64,000 bases of DNA, from NCBI RefSeq assembly GCF_001278755.1, contig NZ_CP012601.1:372001-436000 (forward strand), given 5' to 3'. This DNA comes from Bacillus sp. FJAT-22090. Its GTDB lineage: Bacteria > Bacillota > Bacilli > Bacillales_A > Planococcaceae. The first letter of the stretch is position 1, and each line of letters begins with the position of its first letter. The notes under the pieces are model-generated. The model worked only from the letters and a program-made list of their open reading frames with translations. It was not told the DNA's origin and made no database searches. The translations under genes and the position numbers were made by a program. This document shows positions 2,887 to 13,126 of the stretch, in pieces.

Positions 2887-3687
2887 TTATAAAAAAGAAC
2901 GTTTTACTTTTTCCCAGTAGCTATTATCTTTTAATTTTACGGTTTTGATGATTTTATTGCTTAAAGCAATAGAGACAGTTTCTACATGCTGTATGCTCAA
3001 TGCTTCGTTGTCGGTGCTCATAGATGGATAATCATTCCAATCCTTATGTAAACGGAGTTCGAGAGATCTATTGCCGCTCAATATAAAAGAAGTGCCAAGT
3101 GTTCTGAATTCATTGCTATTGACGGAAGCAATTTCTGTTACTTGGATACAAGGGAGAAGTGGATCTACAACTGCACCGTTTAACGATTTGTTGTAGGCAG
3201 AGCTTCCAGTCGGTGTTGAAATAACCATGCCATCTCCTCGAAACGTCTCGAAGAGCTTATCATCAATAATAATATCTAATACAAATGTTTTTATGATATT
3301 GGATCGAATCGCAAACTCATTTAAACAATAGAATTTCGGATTATGATTGACCGATATTTCCATTAACGGATATTTACGAACTTTTATTTGATCATTTAAT
3401 ACTGCATCTGCCATCGCTTCTATATCTTCTATTAAAAAGTCACAGTACATACTTAATGTGCCAGTTGTTGATATTCCAGCATAAAGACAATCTTGACGAA
3501 AACCAGTTTTGCGAACGGCCTGCAAAAAAGATCCATCTGTTCCAATACTAACAATAATAGAAGCATCTTGGTGGTTGTCTACAACCTGAAAGCCGTACGA
3601 TTGAATCGCATCTGCTAAAACATCTTTTTTTTCTAATGATTCTATGTCATTCTTAGTATAAAGAAATATTGTATTTCTTGAGGTCAT
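2887..3687 (-). CDS. nadK2: NAD kinase
   Basis: Phosphorylates NAD to NADP using ATP or polyphosphate (cytoplasmic). The 266-aa protein has the family motifs in order: the phosphate-binding loop SIGTDGSFLQA (residues 47-57, the GGDG motif with T in the second position, a variant seen in the second NAD kinase of Bacillales), NEFAIRS (123-129), and GDGMVISTPTGSSAY (151-165). A clear AAAGGAGA Shine-Dalgarno lies upstream of the ATG at 3687. Its divergent arrangement with sppA matches ytdI/yteI of B. subtilis. Confidence 0.95.
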   Translation of the reverse strand: MTSRNTIFLYTKNDIESLEKKDVLADAIQSYGFQVVDNHQDASIIVSIGTDGSFLQAVRKTGFRQDCLYAGISTTGTLSMYCDFLIEDIEAMADAVLNDQIKVRKYPLMEISVNHNPKFYCLNEFAIRSNIIKTFVLDIIIDDKLFETFRGDGMVISTPTGSSAYNKSLNGAVVDPLLPCIQVTEIASVNSNEFRTLGTSFILSGNRSLELRLHKDWNDYPSMSTDNEALSIQHVETVSIALSNKIIKTVKLKDNSYWEKVKRSFL

Positions 3688-5485: not shown

Positions 5486-5995
5486 ATGGCTCAAGTAACA
5501 TTTAAAAACAATCCAGTAACTTTAGTTGGAAAAGAAGTAGTAGTTGGAGAAAAGGCGCCAGACTTTACAGTTCTAGCAAATGATTTATCACCAGTAACAC
5601 TTCAAGACTCTGCTGGTAAAGTTCGTTTAATAAGTGTAGTTCCTTCCCTTGATACAGGAGTATGTTCTACACAAACAAACAAATTCAATCAAAGTGCTGC
5701 TAGTTTAGGTGAAGATGTAGTAATCTTAACAATTTCAGTAGATTTACCATTCGCTCAAAAACGTTGGTGCGGAGCTAATGCTGCTGACGCAATTCAAACT
5801 CTATCTGATCACCGTGACCTTTCATTTGGTAGAGCATACGGTGTTTATATGGAAGAACTACGATTACTAGCTCGTTCTGTTTTTGTAGTCGATAAAAATG
5901 ACGTGGTTACTTACGCTGAATACGTTAGCGAAGGTACCGATCATCCAGACTATGAAAAAGCATTAGAAGCGGTTAAAGCATTAACGAACAAATAA
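5486..5995 (+). CDS. tpx: Thiol peroxidase (2-Cys atypical peroxiredoxin)
   Basis: Reduces hydroperoxides with electrons from thioredoxin. The 169-aa protein has the peroxidatic cysteine Cys60 in the motif [15 protein letters not shown] and the resolving Cys95 in RWCGAN, the exact Tpx arrangement. An AAAAGGAGG ribosome-binding site precedes ATG 5486. It follows sppI by 36 bp without an evident terminator, so it may be read from the sppA promoter as well. A terminator hairpin follows. Confidence 0.97.
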
Positions 5996-6005
5996 AACAT
6001 TTAAG

Positions 6006-6028
6006 CCCACTCTTAGAGTGGGTTTTAC
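6006..6028 (+). terminator. Terminator after tpx
   Basis: Stem CCCACTC (6006-6012) and GAGTGGG (6016-6022) with a three-base loop, followed by TTTTAC. Confidence 0.75.
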
Positions 6029-6042
6029 TATGAGGGATAAAT

Positions 6043-6972
6043 ATGCACACAAATGTAGAAAAAATTTTTACGTTTATCGATCAAGAGAGTAGCTTTATAG
6101 AAGAACAAGCATCTGTTACCTATTTAGAGGGAGTTATTTATGCACTGGAATTATGGTTAACAGACAAAAAAACGCCTTCCATCATTAATCCTAGCAAGGA
6201 ACAAATAAGAAAAGCTGTACAACTGGCGATACTTAAAGGTATGAAAAAATCTGCTCAAGTCAATCATCAAATGACCCCAGATGCGATTGGATTACTAGTA
6301 GCTTATTTTGTGAAGGAAATGTCGAAAGACAAAAAGGAATTGGCAATTTTAGACCCTGCCTTAGGAACAGGTAATTTACTTTATACAGTAATGAATGCAT
6401 TACCAACAGAGAACCATGCATTTGGAGTGGAAATTGATGATTTGTTAATCCAGTTGGCTGCACAAACAGGAGAGTTATTAAGTTTCGACGTACAACTATT
6501 TAGACAAGATGCTCTACAGCCTTTACTAATCGATCCTGTTGATATTGTTGTAAGTGATCTGCCAGTTGGATATTATCCTGAATCAGAATCAGCAAAAGAC
6601 TACTTCCTACATAGTGAAGAAGAGATGTCTTATGCACATCACTTGTTTATCGAGCAGTCGATGAAACATGTGAAACCAGGTGGCTTGTTATACTTTTTAG
6701 TACCTGAAACAATTTTTGAATCGAAACAAGCTCCAAAACTGCATAAATTCTTGAAAGACAATGGTTGGATTCAAGCTGTTATCCAATTACCGTCAACTAT
6801 TTTCAAATCAAAAGGACAAGAAAAAAGCTTATTAATCATACAAAAGAAAAATGAGACTTTAAAAGCTCCAAGAGAAGTTTTACTTGCAAAAGTACCAAAT
6901 ATGTCGAACAAAGAAGCAATGGAACTCTTTTTTAAAAAAATTGACATATGGCAAGAAGAAAACGCTAAATAA
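6043..6972 (+). CDS. ytxK: YtxK-family class I SAM-dependent methyltransferase
   Basis: A 309-aa protein related to N6-adenine DNA methyltransferases (type I M-subunit fold). Motif I is ILDPALGTGNLLYTV (around residues 103-117). The motif IV position reads VVSDLPVGYYP instead of the canonical N/D-P-P-Y, a known feature of YtxK that leaves its substrate unclear. No target-recognition domain or restriction partner is nearby. The ytxK-ackA pair is conserved in Bacillales. The ribosome-binding site is weak (GAGGGA). Transcription stops at a hairpin that overlaps the start of ackA. Confidence 0.9.
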   Translation: MHTNVEKIFTFIDQESSFIEEQASVTYLEGVIYALELWLTDKKTPSIINPSKEQIRKAVQLAILKGMKKSAQVNHQMTPDAIGLLVAYFVKEMSKDKKELAILDPALGTGNLLYTVMNALPTENHAFGVEIDDLLIQLAAQTGELLSFDVQLFRQDALQPLLIDPVDIVVSDLPVGYYPESESAKDYFLHSEEEMSYAHHLFIEQSMKHVKPGGLLYFLVPETIFESKQAPKLHKFLKDNGWIQAVIQLPSTIFKSKGQEKSLLIIQKKNETLKAPREVLLAKVPNMSNKEAMELFFKKIDIWQEENAK

Positions 6973-6978
6973 TCATTG

Positions 6979-7007
6979 TTGCTCGCTCCTTCTATGAAAG
7001 GTACAAT
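6979..7007 (+). promoter_or_regulatory. Candidate ackA promoter inside the loop of the ytxK terminator
   Basis: TTGCTC (6979-6984) and TACAAT (7002-7007) with a 17-bp spacer. A transcript from here would begin near 7013 and lack the 5' arm of the hairpin at 6984-7033. Confidence 0.45.
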
Positions 7008-7040
7008 TAACGTACTAGTTTATAGAAGGGGCGTTTTTTT
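6984..7040 (+). terminator. ytxK terminator whose 3' arm contains the ackA ribosome-binding site
   Basis: CGCTCCTTCTAT (6984-6995) pairs over 12 bp (one G-T pair) with ATAGAAGGGGCG (7022-7033), followed by seven T residues that run directly into the ackA ATG at 7041. AGAAGGGG, the only ackA Shine-Dalgarno candidate, is in the 3' arm. Confidence 0.8.
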
Positions 7041-8231
7041 ATGGCAAATATTTTAGCAATTAATGCAGGAAGTTCTTCTTTAAAGTTTCAATTGCTCAAA
7101 ATGCCAGAAGAAGAAGTAATTGCAAAAGGGTTAATCGAGCGAATTGGTTTGAGCGAGCCAATTTTTACGATGACGACAGAAAGTGGACGTACTCAATTAA
7201 TTGAACATGTTGAAAACCATACACAAGCTGTTAAATTAATCATTCGACAGCTGTTAGAAAAAGATGTCATTCACTCTTTAGAGGATATACATGGAGTTGG
7301 ACATCGTGTAGTACATGGTGGGGAAGCCTACAGTGATTCTATACTGATCGATGAAAAGGTTATGGAAAAATTAGATGAGCTATCTGAGCTGGCACCGTTA
7401 CATAATCCAGCAAATATTACAGGTATACGTGAGGTTGCGAAAGAATTACCGCATGTTCCTGCTGTAGCAGTTTTTGATACTGCCTTTCATCAAACAATGC
7501 CAGAGAGCTCATACTTATATTCCATTCCTTATGACTATTATAAGAAGTATGGCATCCGTAAATATGGTTTCCATGGTACCTCACATAAGTTTGTAGCTTA
7601 TCGTGCAGCAGAGATGTTAAATCGACCTATTGAGACTACTCGATTTATATCTTGCCATTTAGGTAATGGTGCAAGTATCGCTGCTATCAATCGTGGTAAA
7701 TCAATCGATACCTCAATGGGATTCACACCTCTTGCCGGAGTAACGATGGGAACAAGATCGGGGAATCTCGACCCAGCACTCATCCCTTATTTAATGGAAA
7801 AAACGGGTAAAAGCGCAGAAGAAGTACTAGATATATTAAACAAAAAATCTGGTATGCTAGGAGTATCTGGATTTTCCAGTGATCTTCGTGATATCGTTAA
7901 CGAGGCTTCCAAAGGAAATGATCGAGCACAGTTAGCCCTAGATGTTTTTGCAAATCGTATTCACAAATATATTGGCTCTTATGCTGCTCGAATGAATGGA
8001 GTAGACGCAATAATATTTACTGCAGGTATCGGAGAGAATAGCTCGGTCATTCGAGAAAAAGTTTTAAGCGGACTACAATTTATGGGTGTTTATATGGATC
8101 CTGATTTAAACCAATTACTAGGGAAAGAAACGTTTATAAATTACCCACATTCACCAGTAAAAGTAATCGTCATACCAACGAACGAAGAAATAATGATTGC
8201 GAGAGATACGATGAGATTAGCGGAATTATAA
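7041..8231 (+). CDS. ackA: Acetate kinase
   Basis: Converts acetyl phosphate and ADP to acetate and ATP in overflow metabolism. Full-length at 396 aa, with [14 protein letters not shown] at the N-terminus, GHRVVHGG, the catalytic region [11 protein letters not shown], the [12 protein letters not shown] signature and the HLGNGAS phosphate loop. Its start follows the terminator T-run immediately. The last 28 codons (8148-8231) have a second, 87% identical copy at 12553-12636, and the native-looking ackA terminator sits behind that distant copy instead of behind this gene. The 3' end here was therefore probably rebuilt by an integration event. Confidence 0.97.
8148..8231 (+). repeat. ackA 3'-end repeat, left copy (candidate island boundary)
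   Basis: These last 28 codons of ackA match 12553-12636 at 73 of 84 bases. The longest identical runs are ATTCACCAGTAAAAGTAAT and AGAGATACGATGAGATT. Together the copies frame the accessory island. Confidence 0.8.
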
Positions 8232-8420
8232 AGGGTTTGAACGATTTTGCTACTAGTAAAATCCAATTTTCAATTATAAAGTTTTCTAGGAAATCAATTA
8301 TATGAGACGTATTTGCTAAAAGACCTAAGTTTCATAACGCTCTAATATTTTCAAGAGTCAGAGCTAGCTATAATTTCGAAGTTTAGCTTTTAAAGGAACT
8401 TGTACATTAGATTTTAAATT

Positions 8421-8710: not shown

Positions 8711-9189
8711 ATGTTATATTTTTTCAACAATTCTAAAAAAGGTTTTTATAGGAGATTCTACTGAAAAAGTTTCTCCTGTTAAAAATGATAATACAAAAAA
8801 ACAAATCCAATATTACCTCTACAAGAATTGGTGAGCTTGGTGAAAATAAGGTAAATCTACAACATGACCAACTAACTAAGAACAGTATATATCTAAGCGA
8901 TGTGTTAATTCATAACAATAAAGCAGAGTCAGGTTATTCACAAATAGACCATGTTATCTTTAATCCTTATGTGATATTTGTTGTAGAGACTAAAAACTAC
9001 TCTGGTACTATTTATGGAGATAGGAGCGGAGCTAAGTGGAGTGTCAATGGAAAATTTCCAATGATGAATCCATTTAATCAGAATTATGGTCATATACAAG
9101 CGATTAAAAGAATTCTAGATACAGCTGATGATACACAATTTGTATCAATTACTTCGGTGGTATTACAAAAGAAGAGCTTGTTCAATTAA
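8711..9189 (+). pseudogene. NERD (nuclease-related) domain protein, frameshifted and truncated
   Basis: The longest piece (8785-9189) reads TRIGELGENKVNLQ...SGYSQIDHVIFNPYVIFVVETKNYSGTIYG, the core of a NERD domain with the D...E-x-K nuclease-like residues (IDHV, VETKN). A strong Shine-Dalgarno (GAGGGAGGAG, 8698-8706) precedes ATG 8711, which opens MLYFFNNSKKG. That frame must shift twice, in A-rich stretches near 8740 and 8795, to join the NERD core. The C-terminal half is missing: the frame is cut at about 9150, exactly where an 85-bp repeat shared with 12320-12403 begins. NERD proteins are thought to bind or cut DNA, but this copy is not functional as it stands. Confidence 0.7.
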
Positions 9190-9234
9190 TTTATTGATAA
9201 ATGGAAGAGAGTCTGACGTATGTTGGGCTCTTTT
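9150..9234 (+). repeat. Direct repeat copy A (island-internal)
   Basis: About 85 bp, starting ACTTCGGTGGTATTACAAAA, nearly identical to 12320-12403. In one frame it encodes the C-terminus GGITKEELVQLIY plus stop, followed by a conserved untranslated stretch. The repeat replaces the 3' half of the NERD gene. Confidence 0.8.
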
Positions 9235-9401
9235 TTGATACTAAGGTTAATGCTCTATTAACATTGTTATATCACGTTCTTTTGTCGAAGGGAGTTCTGA
9301 CAAGAGACTAATCAAATAAATGGATAGAAACAAAGTTTTTTCGATAAAAAATAGGGTGCTAAGTAGAATGATATAACTATTCTTCTATCCATTTTAGATT
9401 T

Positions 9402-9557
9402 AGATACTTTCGTGGTTATGAAAAGAACTTATTGGAAAAAGGAACTAATATTGCTCTAATTTCAAAAGCTTTGGGACATAGGAACTTGGCGATCACAACA
9501 AAATATTTGGATTTAGATGTAGAAGAGGTAGCAACTAATTTGAGAGACTACCTATGA
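9402..9557 (+). pseudogene. Tyrosine recombinase/phage integrase, C-terminal remnant
   Basis: The frame reads NLLEKGTNIALISKALGHRN and then LAITTKYLDLDVEEV before TGA. This is the C-terminal catalytic block of a lambda-type integrase, with the LGH motif and the nucleophile tyrosine (TTKYL). Upstream sequence lacks the R-x-x-H box and the N-terminal domains, so it is a fragment. It gives a mechanism for how the island arrived. Confidence 0.8.
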
Positions 9558-9679
9558 GGATTAAAAACGAGACTTTATGAAGATGAAGAAAAGTAGCTGT
9601 AGTACTTACAAAAGTAATTAGAATCACCCATGACTATAATTAATATAAGAATGTGTTACCTAAACGCCAGTCCGAGTAA

Positions 9680-10000: not shown

Positions 10001-10897
10001 ATGTATGAAAAATATAGTTTAGTTGAATTACAGAAAGAGCCTATACATTCTAATTTAAATCAAGTTAAAATTCTTGATGAAGATTTATATAACGTGAAAT
10101 TATTACAAATTAATATATTGAGAAGCAAATTAATAAATTTAGGAATGAAAAACTCTGAATTTTCTTCCCTATCAATAAAAAGGTCTTCTTTGGAAAATTG
10201 TTATTTACGATATGCGAAATTTGTGAATGTAGATTTTACTGGTTCAACTTTTATTGATTGTGATTTAGAAAACGCTAAGTTCAATTCATGTAATTTAAGA
10301 TATGTGAAATTCAGGAATTGCAAATTAAATATTAAAGAAGTATTGGGCTGTTTACCGACGGAAGCAAACTTAAAACTTGCTTTGTTGAAAGAATTAAGGA
10401 AAAATCAATTAGACTTAGGTGATAACCAATCGAGTGACGAATTATTAGTGAAAATTATTGACACTGAAAAAGAACTTTTTTTAGCAAGGGCATTGTGTAA
10501 GACAAGTTATTATCGAGAAAAGGAAGATGTGTCTTCAAGAATTGTATCATTTTATCATTTTATTATCTTAGTGATGAATGATTTTGTTTGGGGTTACGGT
10601 TTAAAATTAACTCGTTTGTTTAGAACCGCATTCTTAACGATTTTAATATTTGCTTTTTTAATATATATCTTAACAGGTGAGGATTATCTTGCTACATCTG
10701 TAACTGGAAGCATCAAGACCGAACTAAACTTTTGGCAATCTTTGTACGCAAGTTATACTAATTTTACAGCTGTTGGATACGGACATTACACACCAATTGG
10801 ATTAGGGAGTAAACTACTTTTTGTAGTTGAGAATATTTTTGGATTAATTTTCTTTGGTTTATTAATTTCTGGTATATACAGGAGGATAGTGAAGTGA
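10001..10897 (+). CDS. Pentapeptide-repeat potassium-channel-like protein
   Basis: 298 aa in two parts. Residues about 30-112 are pentapeptide-repeat-like (AKFVNVDFTGSTFIDCDLEN and neighbours), predicted to form a right-handed beta helix in the cytoplasm. After a helical linker comes a two-helix pore module: TM1 about 211-225, a pore loop with the K+ selectivity filter TAVGYG (256-261), and TM2 about 270-292. The filter differs from the usual TVGYG by one inserted or substituted residue but keeps VGYG. Ribosome-binding site GGGAG (9986-9990). The stop overlaps the next start by four bases, so the two are translationally coupled. Base composition is markedly AT-rich, consistent with transfer. 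Its job is not known; a gated K+ or cation pore is the structural inference. Confidence 0.75.
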   Translation: MYEKYSLVELQKEPIHSNLNQVKILDEDLYNVKLLQINILRSKLINLGMKNSEFSSLSIKRSSLENCYLRYAKFVNVDFTGSTFIDCDLENAKFNSCNLRYVKFRNCKLNIKEVLGCLPTEANLKLALLKELRKNQLDLGDNQSSDELLVKIIDTEKELFLARALCKTSYYREKEDVSSRIVSFYHFIILVMNDFVWGYGLKLTRLFRTAFLTILIFAFLIYILTGEDYLATSVTGSIKTELNFWQSLYASYTNFTAVGYGHYTPIGLGSKLLFVVENIFGLIFFGLLISGIYRRIVK

Positions 10898-11670
10898 ATA
10901 AATATTATGACTTTGAACAAATAGAAGGATTGTTAAGTATAGTTCTTTTCGGTTCAAAAGCAAGAGGAGAGGAAGATGATTTTTCAGATGTGGATATATT
11001 TCTATTGGTTGAGGATATTCCACAAGATAGAATAGAAGAAATCATAGATATCTTAAAAAGTAAATTATTATTTGATAACATCAGAATATCTCTTTATCAA
11101 ATAAGTACATACAAACAATTGTTATTGGAAGGCTCAATGTTTATATGGCATTTAAAACTTGAAGGTAGAATCATTTATAAAAAATCAAATATCAATTTAT
11201 ATAACAACTTAGTTCCATTCACCAAGTTTCAGTATAACCTTTCACTGTATAAAAAACTTTATATAAATGCAAAAGCAAGTTTGAAGGCAAATGGAATGAA
11301 TGAATTTGATTTATCCCAATTATTTTTTATTTGTAGAAATGTATGTCTTCTTACTTGTTTTAAGCTATCTTATCCTACCTTTGGTAGAATTTCAGTTTAC
11401 GATAAACTACTTGAAATTATTGGCGTTTTACCTCTTAGTAGAGAAAATTATATTTTATTATCTAGATGGAGACTAAGCTATACTCGAGCAATTGATTTAA
11501 ATTTAAATTTTCCTACAGGAGTAAATATGTTAAAGATTTTAGCAGAAATTGATAACTTATTTACCTTATCGAGGGAGATTATTGAAAGTGGAGGACAAAA
11601 TGTTGGAAAAATTACCAAACATGAAGATATTCTTGAAAAAATTGAAAAAAGACAAAACTTTAGTATTTAA
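10894..11670 (+). CDS. Nucleotidyltransferase-fold protein (MNT/DNA polymerase beta type)
   Basis: 258 aa. The N-terminal domain has the classic G-S-x10-D-x-D signature: G20-S21 in LFGSKARGE and D32/D34 in SDVDIF. The place where a third catalytic carboxylate is usual reads IRISLYQ, so that residue may be missing or displaced. Residues about 100-258 form a mostly helical domain that recalls the helical partners of MNT enzymes, but I see no HEPN R-x4-6-H motif. The gene overlaps the channel gene by four bases and the next gene by about 70, so the three form one operon. MNT proteins can AMPylate or otherwise modify partners; the substrate here is unknown. Confidence 0.72.
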   Translation: MNKYYDFEQIEGLLSIVLFGSKARGEEDDFSDVDIFLLVEDIPQDRIEEIIDILKSKLLFDNIRISLYQISTYKQLLLEGSMFIWHLKLEGRIIYKKSNINLYNNLVPFTKFQYNLSLYKKLYINAKASLKANGMNEFDLSQLFFICRNVCLLTCFKLSYPTFGRISVYDKLLEIIGVLPLSRENYILLSRWRLSYTRAIDLNLNFPTGVNMLKILAEIDNLFTLSREIIESGGQNVGKITKHEDILEKIEKRQNFSI

Positions 11671-11998
11671 TTATGAAAAATTAAGCCTATTTGAACGCGA
11701 GCTATTTTTATCTTCTCAAAATCTTTTAATTGAGAATTACGGGATTCGATTATGGGGAATATCTCGCTATCATTACAAAAAGTTCATTAAAGAAATGGAA
11801 GAACAAAATCTAAGATTAGATAGTAATATAAAAAAGTTAGTTGAGTTGAGTTTGGAAATAAATAATATAGTTAATAATAGAAGTGGAAATTTAGGTTATG
11901 GGGGAACAAGTACTCGGGAAAATAAGAAGAATGCAAAATTGGATTTATTAATTGAATACATTGGAGATTATATTCAATTGTATGAAGAGATCGTATAA
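11600..11998 (+). CDS. Unrecognised 132-aa protein, third gene of the channel operon
   Basis: Charged, predicted largely helical, with no membrane segment or signal peptide. A frame open from 11549 exists, but GGAGGA (11590-11595) just upstream of ATG 11600 makes 11600 the likely start, giving MLEKLPNMKIFLKK. A central YGIRLWGISRYHYKKF segment and a glycine-rich SGNLGYGGTSTRENKK loop are the most distinctive parts. I do not recognise the family. The overlap with the nucleotidyltransferase gene implies joint expression, so it could be a modification target, regulator or effector. Confidence 0.6.
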   Translation: MLEKLPNMKIFLKKLKKDKTLVFNYEKLSLFERELFLSSQNLLIENYGIRLWGISRYHYKKFIKEMEEQNLRLDSNIKKLVELSLEINNIVNNRSGNLGYGGTSTRENKKNAKLDLLIEYIGDYIQLYEEIV

Positions 11999-12319
11999 AG
12001 AGGAATCTCTAATAATTTATTTGAAGTAAGTACCTGTTAATAAAATTTTGGTTTAGTATGCTTTGATTTACAGTAGTTTTTTTCAGTGGATTACACTTAG
12101 CTAAATTAAGTCAAAAAGGAAAAATAAAAGTAGAGCATAACTAAAATCTGATAATAAATATATTAATAAGTTAGTGTACAGAATTACTAGTAGAAAAATA
12201 TAAATTACCGAATTGACTTATTTAATGAACATTTTCAATATACTTTCCAATATTAGAAAGATTATCTAACCAAGTTAGTAAGAGGTTAGACTCTCTTAAC
12301 AAACGTAGACGTCCCTAAA

Positions 12320-12403
12320 TACTTCGTTGGTATTACAAAAGAAGAGCTTGTTCAATTAATTTATTGATATATGGGAGAGATCTGACGTATGTTAGGCTCT
12401 TTA
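12320..12403 (+). repeat. Direct repeat copy B (island-internal)
   Basis: Matches 9150-9234 with few differences. Here the coding part has more upstream context (NVDVPKYFVGITKEELVQLIY then stop), so this may be the original location and copy A the transplanted one. The 320 bp before it (11999-12319) show no supportable gene. Confidence 0.8.
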
Positions 12404-12552
12404 TTAATTCTAAAATGGAGTTATGGTCGTTCAATTAGAGTACATGATTATAGAAAAGAAATCATAACCATTTTTACATATGATGGAGCAATCACAACTG
12501 AAATGGTATAATTGGCTTAAGAATACTTAGAAATGTTGTCATATCAAGGGTC

Positions 12553-12636
12553 GATTCACCAGTAAAAGTAATTGTAATTCCGATGAATGAAGAAATAATG
12601 ATTGCCAGAGATACGATGAGATTGGAGGTATTATAA
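12553..12636 (+). repeat. ackA 3'-end repeat, right copy (displaced ackA end)
   Basis: Encodes [20 protein letters not shown] and the rest of an acetate kinase C-terminus to a TAA at 12634, with 23 of 27 residues equal to the end of ackA. It has no start and is followed directly by a good terminator. Probably the original end of the host ackA. Confidence 0.8.
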
Positions 12637-12672
12637 AAAGGGAGGTAGCCCAACAGGGCTACCTCTTTTGGA
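12636..12672. terminator. Bidirectional terminator between the displaced ackA end and the usp gene
   Basis: AGGTAGCCC (12643-12651) and GGGCTACCT (12655-12663) form the stem, with an A-rich 5' flank and T-rich 3' flank that serve both strands. Confidence 0.85.
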
Positions 12673-12673
12673 T

Positions 12674-13126
12674 TTAACTTTCTGTTTCTTCAGTACGAAC
12701 TACTAGAACATCACACTTTGAGGAGCGAACGATGTATTCAGATACACTACCGATAAGGAAGCGTTCTACTGTGTTTAAACCAGTTGCCCCACAGATAATT
12801 AAATCTGCTTCTACTTTGTTTGCGATGTCTTTTGAAATCATTGTTTTTGGTGAGCCATACTCAACGATTATGTTCACATTTGCAACGCCGCCTGCAAGAG
12901 CTTCTTTTTTATATCCATCTAATAATTCTTCTGCAAAAACTTGAGCTCGTTCAGCGATAGAGCGGTCATAAGCCTCGATTGCAGCAAATGATCTTGTATC
13001 AATAATGTTAATCAAGTTTAAAGTGGCATTGTTTCTTGCTGCAATGGATACAGATTTTTTAAAAGCAAGCTCCGCCTCTTTAGAACCATCTACTGCAACT
13101 AGAATTTGTTTGTATTTTAATGTCAT
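12674..13126 (-). CDS. Universal stress protein (UspA family)
   Basis: A 150-aa single-domain Usp. It begins KQILVAVDGSKEAELAF and ends with the ATP-binding signature GATGLNTVERFLIGSVSEYIV (G-2x-G-9x-G-S pattern), so it is of the nucleotide-binding subtype. An AGGAGG ribosome-binding site precedes the ATG at 13126. Divergent from ald across a 213-bp gap. Stress or starvation control is usual for the family; no alternative-sigma promoter could be assigned by eye. Confidence 0.93.
   Translation of the reverse strand: MTLKYKQILVAVDGSKEAELAFKKSVSIAARNNATLNLINIIDTRSFAAIEAYDRSIAERAQVFAEELLDGYKKEALAGGVANVNIIVEYGSPKTMISKDIANKVEADLIICGATGLNTVERFLIGSVSEYIVRSSKCDVLVVRTEETES

Follow-up and report, generated by a model that had tools for sequence, protein, structure and literature searches.

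What is the function of a tightly packed operon that encodes a pentapeptide-repeat channel, a nucleotidyltransferase and a small protein of no known family in a putative genomic island? The question is raised by positions 10,001 to 11,998 of a 64,000-nucleotide stretch of the Bacillus sp. FJAT-22090 genome (NZ_CP012601.1, positions 372,001 to 436,000, forward strand), the whole of which is referred to here as the window. Our analysis points to a mobile three-gene anti-phage operon of the Hailong type that works like Hailong, a reading to which we give a probability of about 0.65. The first two genes have a known counterpart in Hailong; for the conserved third gene no named counterpart was found in the material searched, and the divergent branch extends across several bacterial phyla and to an Asgard archaeon.

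Coding features of the operon

The three genes are referred to as genes 1, 2 and 3, and together as the trio. Their features are as follows.

10001..10897, forward strand: gene 1, HalA-like candidate effector with a pentapeptide-repeat solenoid, a helical linker and a two-helix pore channel (ATG start, 298 amino acids)
10064..10330, forward strand: pentapeptide-repeat domain of gene 1 (residues ~22-110), putative counterpart of the HalA repeat region
10766..10783, forward strand: TAVGYG selectivity-filter motif of gene 1 (residues 256-261)
10894..11670, forward strand: gene 2, HalB-like nucleotidyltransferase (GTG start, 258 amino acids, 4-bp overlap with gene 1)
10951..10995, forward strand: catalytic signature GSxxRx6SDxD of gene 2 (G20-D34)
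11146..11163, forward strand: W85-H86...E90 (WHLxxE) of gene 2, with IHLAFE at the corresponding place in HalB
11600..11998, forward strand: gene 3, predicted small helical-bundle protein and third component (132 amino acids)
11696..11698, forward strand: arginine R33, invariant throughout the gene 3 family alignment (36 of 36 rows)
11876..11899, forward strand: conserved loop motif N-R-S...G-Y of gene 3 (residues 93-100), between the helix at 75-92 and the last helix at 112-131

An earlier note made from the DNA letters had described three overlapping, AT-rich genes here, and this description is accurate: their guanine-plus-cytosine content is 26-28% (35% for the window), and the overlaps are 4 bp between genes 1 and 2 and 71 bases between genes 2 and 3 when gene 3 is counted from the ATG at 11600. 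The longest open reading frame (ORF) of gene 3 begins at a TTG (11549), but the ATG is likely the true start because it has a GGAGG upstream and agrees with the N-terminus of the Priestia homologue. The domain assignments of the same note were borne out. Gene 1 joins pentapeptide repeats (PF00805, 68.9 bits) to a two-helix pore with the TxGYG filter as TAVGYG, and both matches are above the Pfam cut-offs (for Ion_trans_2, PF07885, 37.5 bits against 22.5). Gene 2 exceeds the Pfam cut-offs for PF18765 and PF01909, and its GS-x10-D-x-D signature consists of G20, S21, D32 and D34.

The alignments (28 rows in A4 and 30 rows each in A5 and A6) were drawn from the 39 loci described below and exclude the majority of near-copies and of broken or cut genes. 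The active site proposed in the note is kept in homologues of gene 2, where G20, S21, R24, S31, D32 and D34 are invariant in all 30 rows. In the three nearest Bacillaceae relatives the identity is 51-58% for gene 1 and 38-54% for gene 2; because both genes are conserved there, the trio is more than a chance observation. The T-x-GYG filter is present in five of 28 gene 1 homologues and absent in the other 23, so the term 'K+ channel' used in the note describes the branch of the window and not the family. In that branch the TAVGYG motif suggests K+ efflux.

Gene 3, which the note could not place, gave nothing at E ≤0.01 when searched against Pfam, NCBIfam, PADLOC and PHROGs, and neither the single sequence nor the 30-row alignment (for PHROGs, six proteins in place of the alignment) led to a family assignment from these databases or the PDB sequences. 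A relationship to LmuC (best E 0.00012, two rows) was taken as chance; any weak match was common to at most two of the 30 rows. A hint that trio enzymes share a Y-E-R-V ending was set aside because, judged by its residues, the ending seems to stem from the frame overlap with the beginning of gene 3.

Distribution and linkage of the trio

The operon is seldom found, spans a wide range of hosts and has closely packed genes. A tblastn search with gene 1 gave six matches in plasmid records, five of which were retrieved (the Rhizobium lusitanum record excepted), and four of these five, from Priestia, Pseudomonas, Janthinobacterium and Rhizobium, carry the same trio. Scans of contigs from 84,980 species and of viral contigs yielded 24 and nine loci, respectively. 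Together with the window and the five plasmid loci this gives a set of 39, some of which are near-copies. Profile searches found all three genes in order in 36 of the 39, which goes against the note's refuting condition that the genes are rarely neighbours. Iteration of the profiles on these same loci inflates their E-values; 35 gene 3 ORFs, seeds included, had already come up in the first round, which began from five seeds. The hosts belong to the Bacillota, Pseudomonadota, Bacteroidota and Cyanobacteria and include one planctomycete and one Asgard archaeon. The full trio is missing from L033, where a haloarchaeal pentapeptide-channel protein was matched, and from L057 and L058, two Omnitrophota loci with a channel match only; a gene is split or cut in L039, L041, L042, L051, L059 and L068.

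Searching 883 genomes of three classes with gene 2 gave three non-seed matches, all with gene 1 upstream. Gene 2 is present in two of 299, two of 295 and two of 289 genomes, and in every class one of the two is a seed. Gene 3 was found in two of the non-seed loci, in L181 by profile and in L179 as a short version recognised by eye. The HalB family matched 66 of 369 gammaproteobacterial genomes, mostly over a short stretch. The five non-seed loci with the strongest matches comprise three with the complete set of genes (L111, L113 and L114, although gene 1 was seen only in part in L114) and two with the HalB-family enzyme alone (L112 and L115).

The gaps between genes in 27 loci are -7 to +5 nucleotides for genes 1 and 2 and -71 to +21 nucleotides for genes 2 and 3. 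Mirror-tree correlations of the three genes over 27 loci are 0.95, 0.91 and 0.93, values that are no proof of contact because they are expected from inheritance as one block. Its order in 36 of 39 loci marks the trio as an old conserved unit. The enzyme tree (44 rows) places 34 trio enzymes together to the same side of a branch whose support is 84/96; the branch was not starred, and the tree carries a long-branch warning.

Comparison with Hailong

Hailong (HalA/HalB) was reportedly described by Tan et al. (Nature 643:794, 2025); in that paper HalB is said to start its polymer on a tyrosine, and the repeat region of the channel is said to be termed the 'crown'. According to excerpts of two papers, Hailong keeps its effector suppressed by making single-stranded DNA, and the suppression is lifted through phage exonuclease activity (PMC12657230, PMC12657218); poly-dA adducts of HalB appear in an excerpt of a third (PMC13275509). 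Hailong is described as one of a handful of systems that restrain an immune effector with a nucleotide signal.

The structure-based and profile searches proposed in the note both lead to this system. HalB is the best match of the gene 2 profile, and gene 2 has the HalB-type active-site skeleton, namely GSxxR, SDxD, F..H...E and a later R and F. For gene 1, the AlphaFold2 model (all models are monomers; predicted local distance difference test score, pLDDT, 85.4) has as its best PDB match in Foldseek, over nearly its full length, HalA with bound oligo-dA (9nyi), at ~15% identity in the structural alignment. Gene 1 thereby combines a repeat domain and an ion-channel domain with a predicted HalA-like fold, as in a Hailong effector. 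The arrangement is also alike, with a pentapeptide-type repeat and an ion-channel domain in the effector and a Pol-beta nucleotidyltransferase directly after it, and the two-gene Hailong locus L140 has the same 4-bp gene overlap as genes 1 and 2 of the window.

The two differ in gene number, since Hailong has two genes whereas the trio has a third. At the filter position, L140 and L144, both two-gene Hailong loci, have FGYTNY and FGYTNH, respectively, in place of TAVGYG. Their HalB ends in tyrosine, and gene 3 was not found by profile in either. A C-terminal tyrosine occurs in nine of nine HalB-clade proteins, and we infer it to be a defining feature; five of 35 trio enzymes have a tyrosine in their last three residues. 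In the loci examined, the presence of gene 3 tracks the absence of the HalB C-terminal tyrosine and vice versa, with the exception of L183, which has neither, and of the five trio enzymes just mentioned.

The note knew of no named system with this gene set. For genes 1 and 2 that no longer holds, Hailong being their counterpart; for gene 3 it stands in the material searched. No three-gene Hailong and no pentapeptide-channel-nucleotidyltransferase operon was found in the literature among the matches listed, supplements excluded, and the Hailong paper may mention such loci.

Island and genomic context

The repeats around the trio are as follows.

8149..8232, forward strand: left copy of an 84-nucleotide direct repeat, the 3' end of ackA and likely island boundary
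12554..12637, forward strand: right copy of the 84-nucleotide direct repeat (88%), adjoining usp
9147..9244, forward strand: left copy of an inner direct repeat (64 + 33 nucleotides)
12317..12413, forward strand: right copy of the inner direct repeat (94% and 88%)

A direct repeat that copies the 3' end of a gene is the usual sign of an element integrated into that gene end, and the island is likely bounded by the 84-nucleotide repeats at the 3' end of ackA. Nineteen genomes of the genus, among them that of the window itself, were searched for the right-hand junction (12554-13126). G017 has the end of ackA joined directly to usp in a single match over the whole query, as expected of an empty site. 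Two copies of the ackA end lie ~2.2 kb apart in G015, and in G006 and G013 the ackA end is ~75-110 nucleotides from usp. The distance is ~2.9, 12.5, 1.4 and 1.1 kb in G010, G004, G003 and G008, where a second copy was not matched, and in the remaining ten genomes the match was confined to the usp side. The site is therefore variable in the genus, being empty in G017 and having 1.1 to 12.5 kb between the ackA end and usp in five of the 18 other genomes. The integrase remnant and the decayed island of the note were both seen again by eye only, as a tyrosine recombinase C-terminus near 9480-9558 and as decay in the rest of the island. Inside the island the trio is flanked by the inner direct repeats, which are possibly the trace of a separate insertion. 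A short ORF with a NERD domain (PF08378, 83 bits; 8785-9189), weakly matching the defence kinase MAD6, is probably a broken gene.

Elsewhere the trio has defence-type neighbours, namely HamA and a helicase (L037), an SLFN-type helicase (L036), a KAP NTPase (L067) and Mrr with a sub-threshold Abi_2 (L050), and it occurs on viral contigs and a small plasmid. This context fits defence. The trio adjoins a portal gene (PF04860) in a phage contig (L062, 5878-7627) and lies, by eye, amid phage replication and recombination genes in L060 and L061 (~5860-7745); the phage records gave no match to the HalB stretch or gene 1. In Sutcliffiella and Cytobacillus it lies a few kb downstream of rlmH as read by eye (L036, ~2980-3459; L037, ~1566-2090), and rlmH is a known staphylococcal cassette chromosome (SCC) insertion site.

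That the operon is instead a ligand-gated channel for osmotic or nutrient stress, carried by a mobile island, is improbable. The K+ filter is intact in the Bacillaceae branch and channels of the PF07885 family were matched in 11 of 14 control genomes, as such a role would have it, but the trio is rare and patchy, as the gene 2 counts in the three classes illustrate, and it is found in viral contigs, on plasmids and beside defence genes.

Proposed mechanism and possible role of gene 3

Judged from homology, the trio should work in the Hailong sense, with the channel off while the enzyme is on and open once the signal is lost. Gene 2 would continuously make a nucleotide polymer or adduct, and the pentapeptide-repeat crown of gene 1 would bind this signal and hold the channel shut. 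A phage product would destroy or sequester the signal, as a phage exonuclease does for Hailong, and the freed channel would depolarise the cell so that growth stops before phage release. The proposal of the note, in which the enzyme makes a channel ligand or modifies the small protein and the channel opens on phage attack or loss of the regulator, fits Hailong, gene 1 being structurally HalA-like and gene 2 HalB-like.

Several observations weigh against this assignment. Both window proteins score 37.8 bits, against NCBIfam equivalog cut-offs of 250 for HalA and 190 for HalB, which control loci reach (HalA: 435.4 bits in L140 and 266.6 in L144; HalB: 271.8 in L140 and 220.8 in L145, with L144 slightly below at 185.1). 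The HalA match is partly generic, since 20 of 28 are matched by the Qnr pentapeptide model as well. The hhalign alignment of gene 1 with HalA (96.9%) covers the repeat region only, and of four other channel halves compared with HalA three had no match at E 0.1 and one matched at 0.049. The superposition of gene 1 on HalA is loose (Foldseek template-modelling score 0.41 and root-mean-square deviation, rmsd, 10.8; VIA-align rmsd 7.5). In gene 2, the third catalytic acid of the motif [D/E]h[D/E]..h[D/E]h, named for Hailong enzymes, was not placed, and the protein ends in QNFSI, lacking the HalB C-terminal tyrosine. Gene 3 was not found in the gene 2 locus L183. The ion is uncertain in the channels concerned because 23 of 28 lack the filter, and the defence neighbours are ten proteins chosen by eye, with Abi_2 below its cut-off. 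Because its scores are far below the NCBI cut-offs, the trio is best described as a divergent Hailong-like variant and not as HalA/HalB proper; by these thresholds, by gene count and by the HalB tail it lies outside HalA/HalB.

Gene 3 would stand in for something that HalB carries itself: most likely gene 2 assembles the signal on it or together with it, and it may act as acceptor or adaptor. Its AlphaFold2 model (pLDDT 88.3) is a predicted helical bundle, at best HEPN-like; it aligns with HEPN chains, with none of 120 Foldseek matches at E ≤0.001. The best conserved residues are Arg, Leu, Gly and Trp (36-row alignment), the Ser of the loop motif is kept in 31 of 36 rows, and no hydroxyl residue is common to all 36. 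This conservation favours a gene 3 that is a structural or folding bridge between enzyme and channel, with gene 2 starting synthesis without it, which is compatible with a Hailong-type operon and only somewhat short of an even chance; the nearly complementary occurrence of gene 3 and the tyrosine tail of HalB speaks against it.

A more specific and doubtful proposal is that gene 3 is a HEPN-like protein primer with no RNase site, on whose conserved-loop Tyr or Ser gene 2 builds an oligonucleotide, so that the crown would be plugged by a protein-oligonucleotide instead of a strand that is free or bound to HalB. MntA adds adenosine monophosphates to a tyrosine of HepT, and the gene 3 loop would be comparable in place to this tyrosine. 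If true, Hailong merged the primer into HalB as the C-terminal tyrosine tail, and the family links MntA/HepT modification with DNA-gated channels.

Related nucleotidyltransferase systems

The trio resembles MntA/HepT in that a GSx10DxD enzyme lies next to a small protein predicted to be helical, and the model of that protein can be aligned with HEPN chains. It differs in that gene 2 is larger, with a helical C-terminal half of its own, and in that the effector is a channel. Gene 2 scores 27.6 bits against the NCBIfam MntA cut-off of 60, and the RX4HXY motif of the HEPN partner was not found by eye in the gene 3 alignment. A toxin-antitoxin module based on protein modification, with gene 1 as the toxin, is rather unlikely; here gene 2 would transfer nucleotides straight to gene 3 or gene 1 without any separate signal, and the operon would serve mobile-element maintenance or defence. 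Panoptes and Clover are also described as using inhibitory nucleotide signals; their effectors and signals are different.

In five of seven plasmid loci, a HalB-like enzyme lies directly after a WYL-domain gene on the same strand, at the following positions.

L142, 3001-3675: HalB-like enzyme behind WYL
L145, 2992-3675: HalB-like enzyme behind WYL, above the HalB cut-off (220.8 of 190 bits)
L146, 2989-3672: HalB-like enzyme behind WYL
L147, 2992-3675: HalB-like enzyme behind WYL
L148, 2989-3672: HalB-like enzyme behind WYL

These loci share the HalB-type enzyme with the trio; neither gene 1 nor gene 3 was found in them by profile. In L141 the WYL gene is nearby on the opposite strand and in L143 none is annotated. 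L147 has an annotated CBASS phospholipase, and L142 has a similar order (patatin, nucleotidyltransferase). The HalB product could be the ligand of the WYL repressor; that of the WYL repressor CapW is given as unknown in an excerpt of PMC9122588.

Implications

With the three-gene branch one can examine directly how synthesis of the signal begins, what it is that the crown recognises and whether the pore in use is K+ selective. The trio may link two nucleotidyltransferase themes, protein modification as in MntA/HepT and polymer synthesis as in Hailong.
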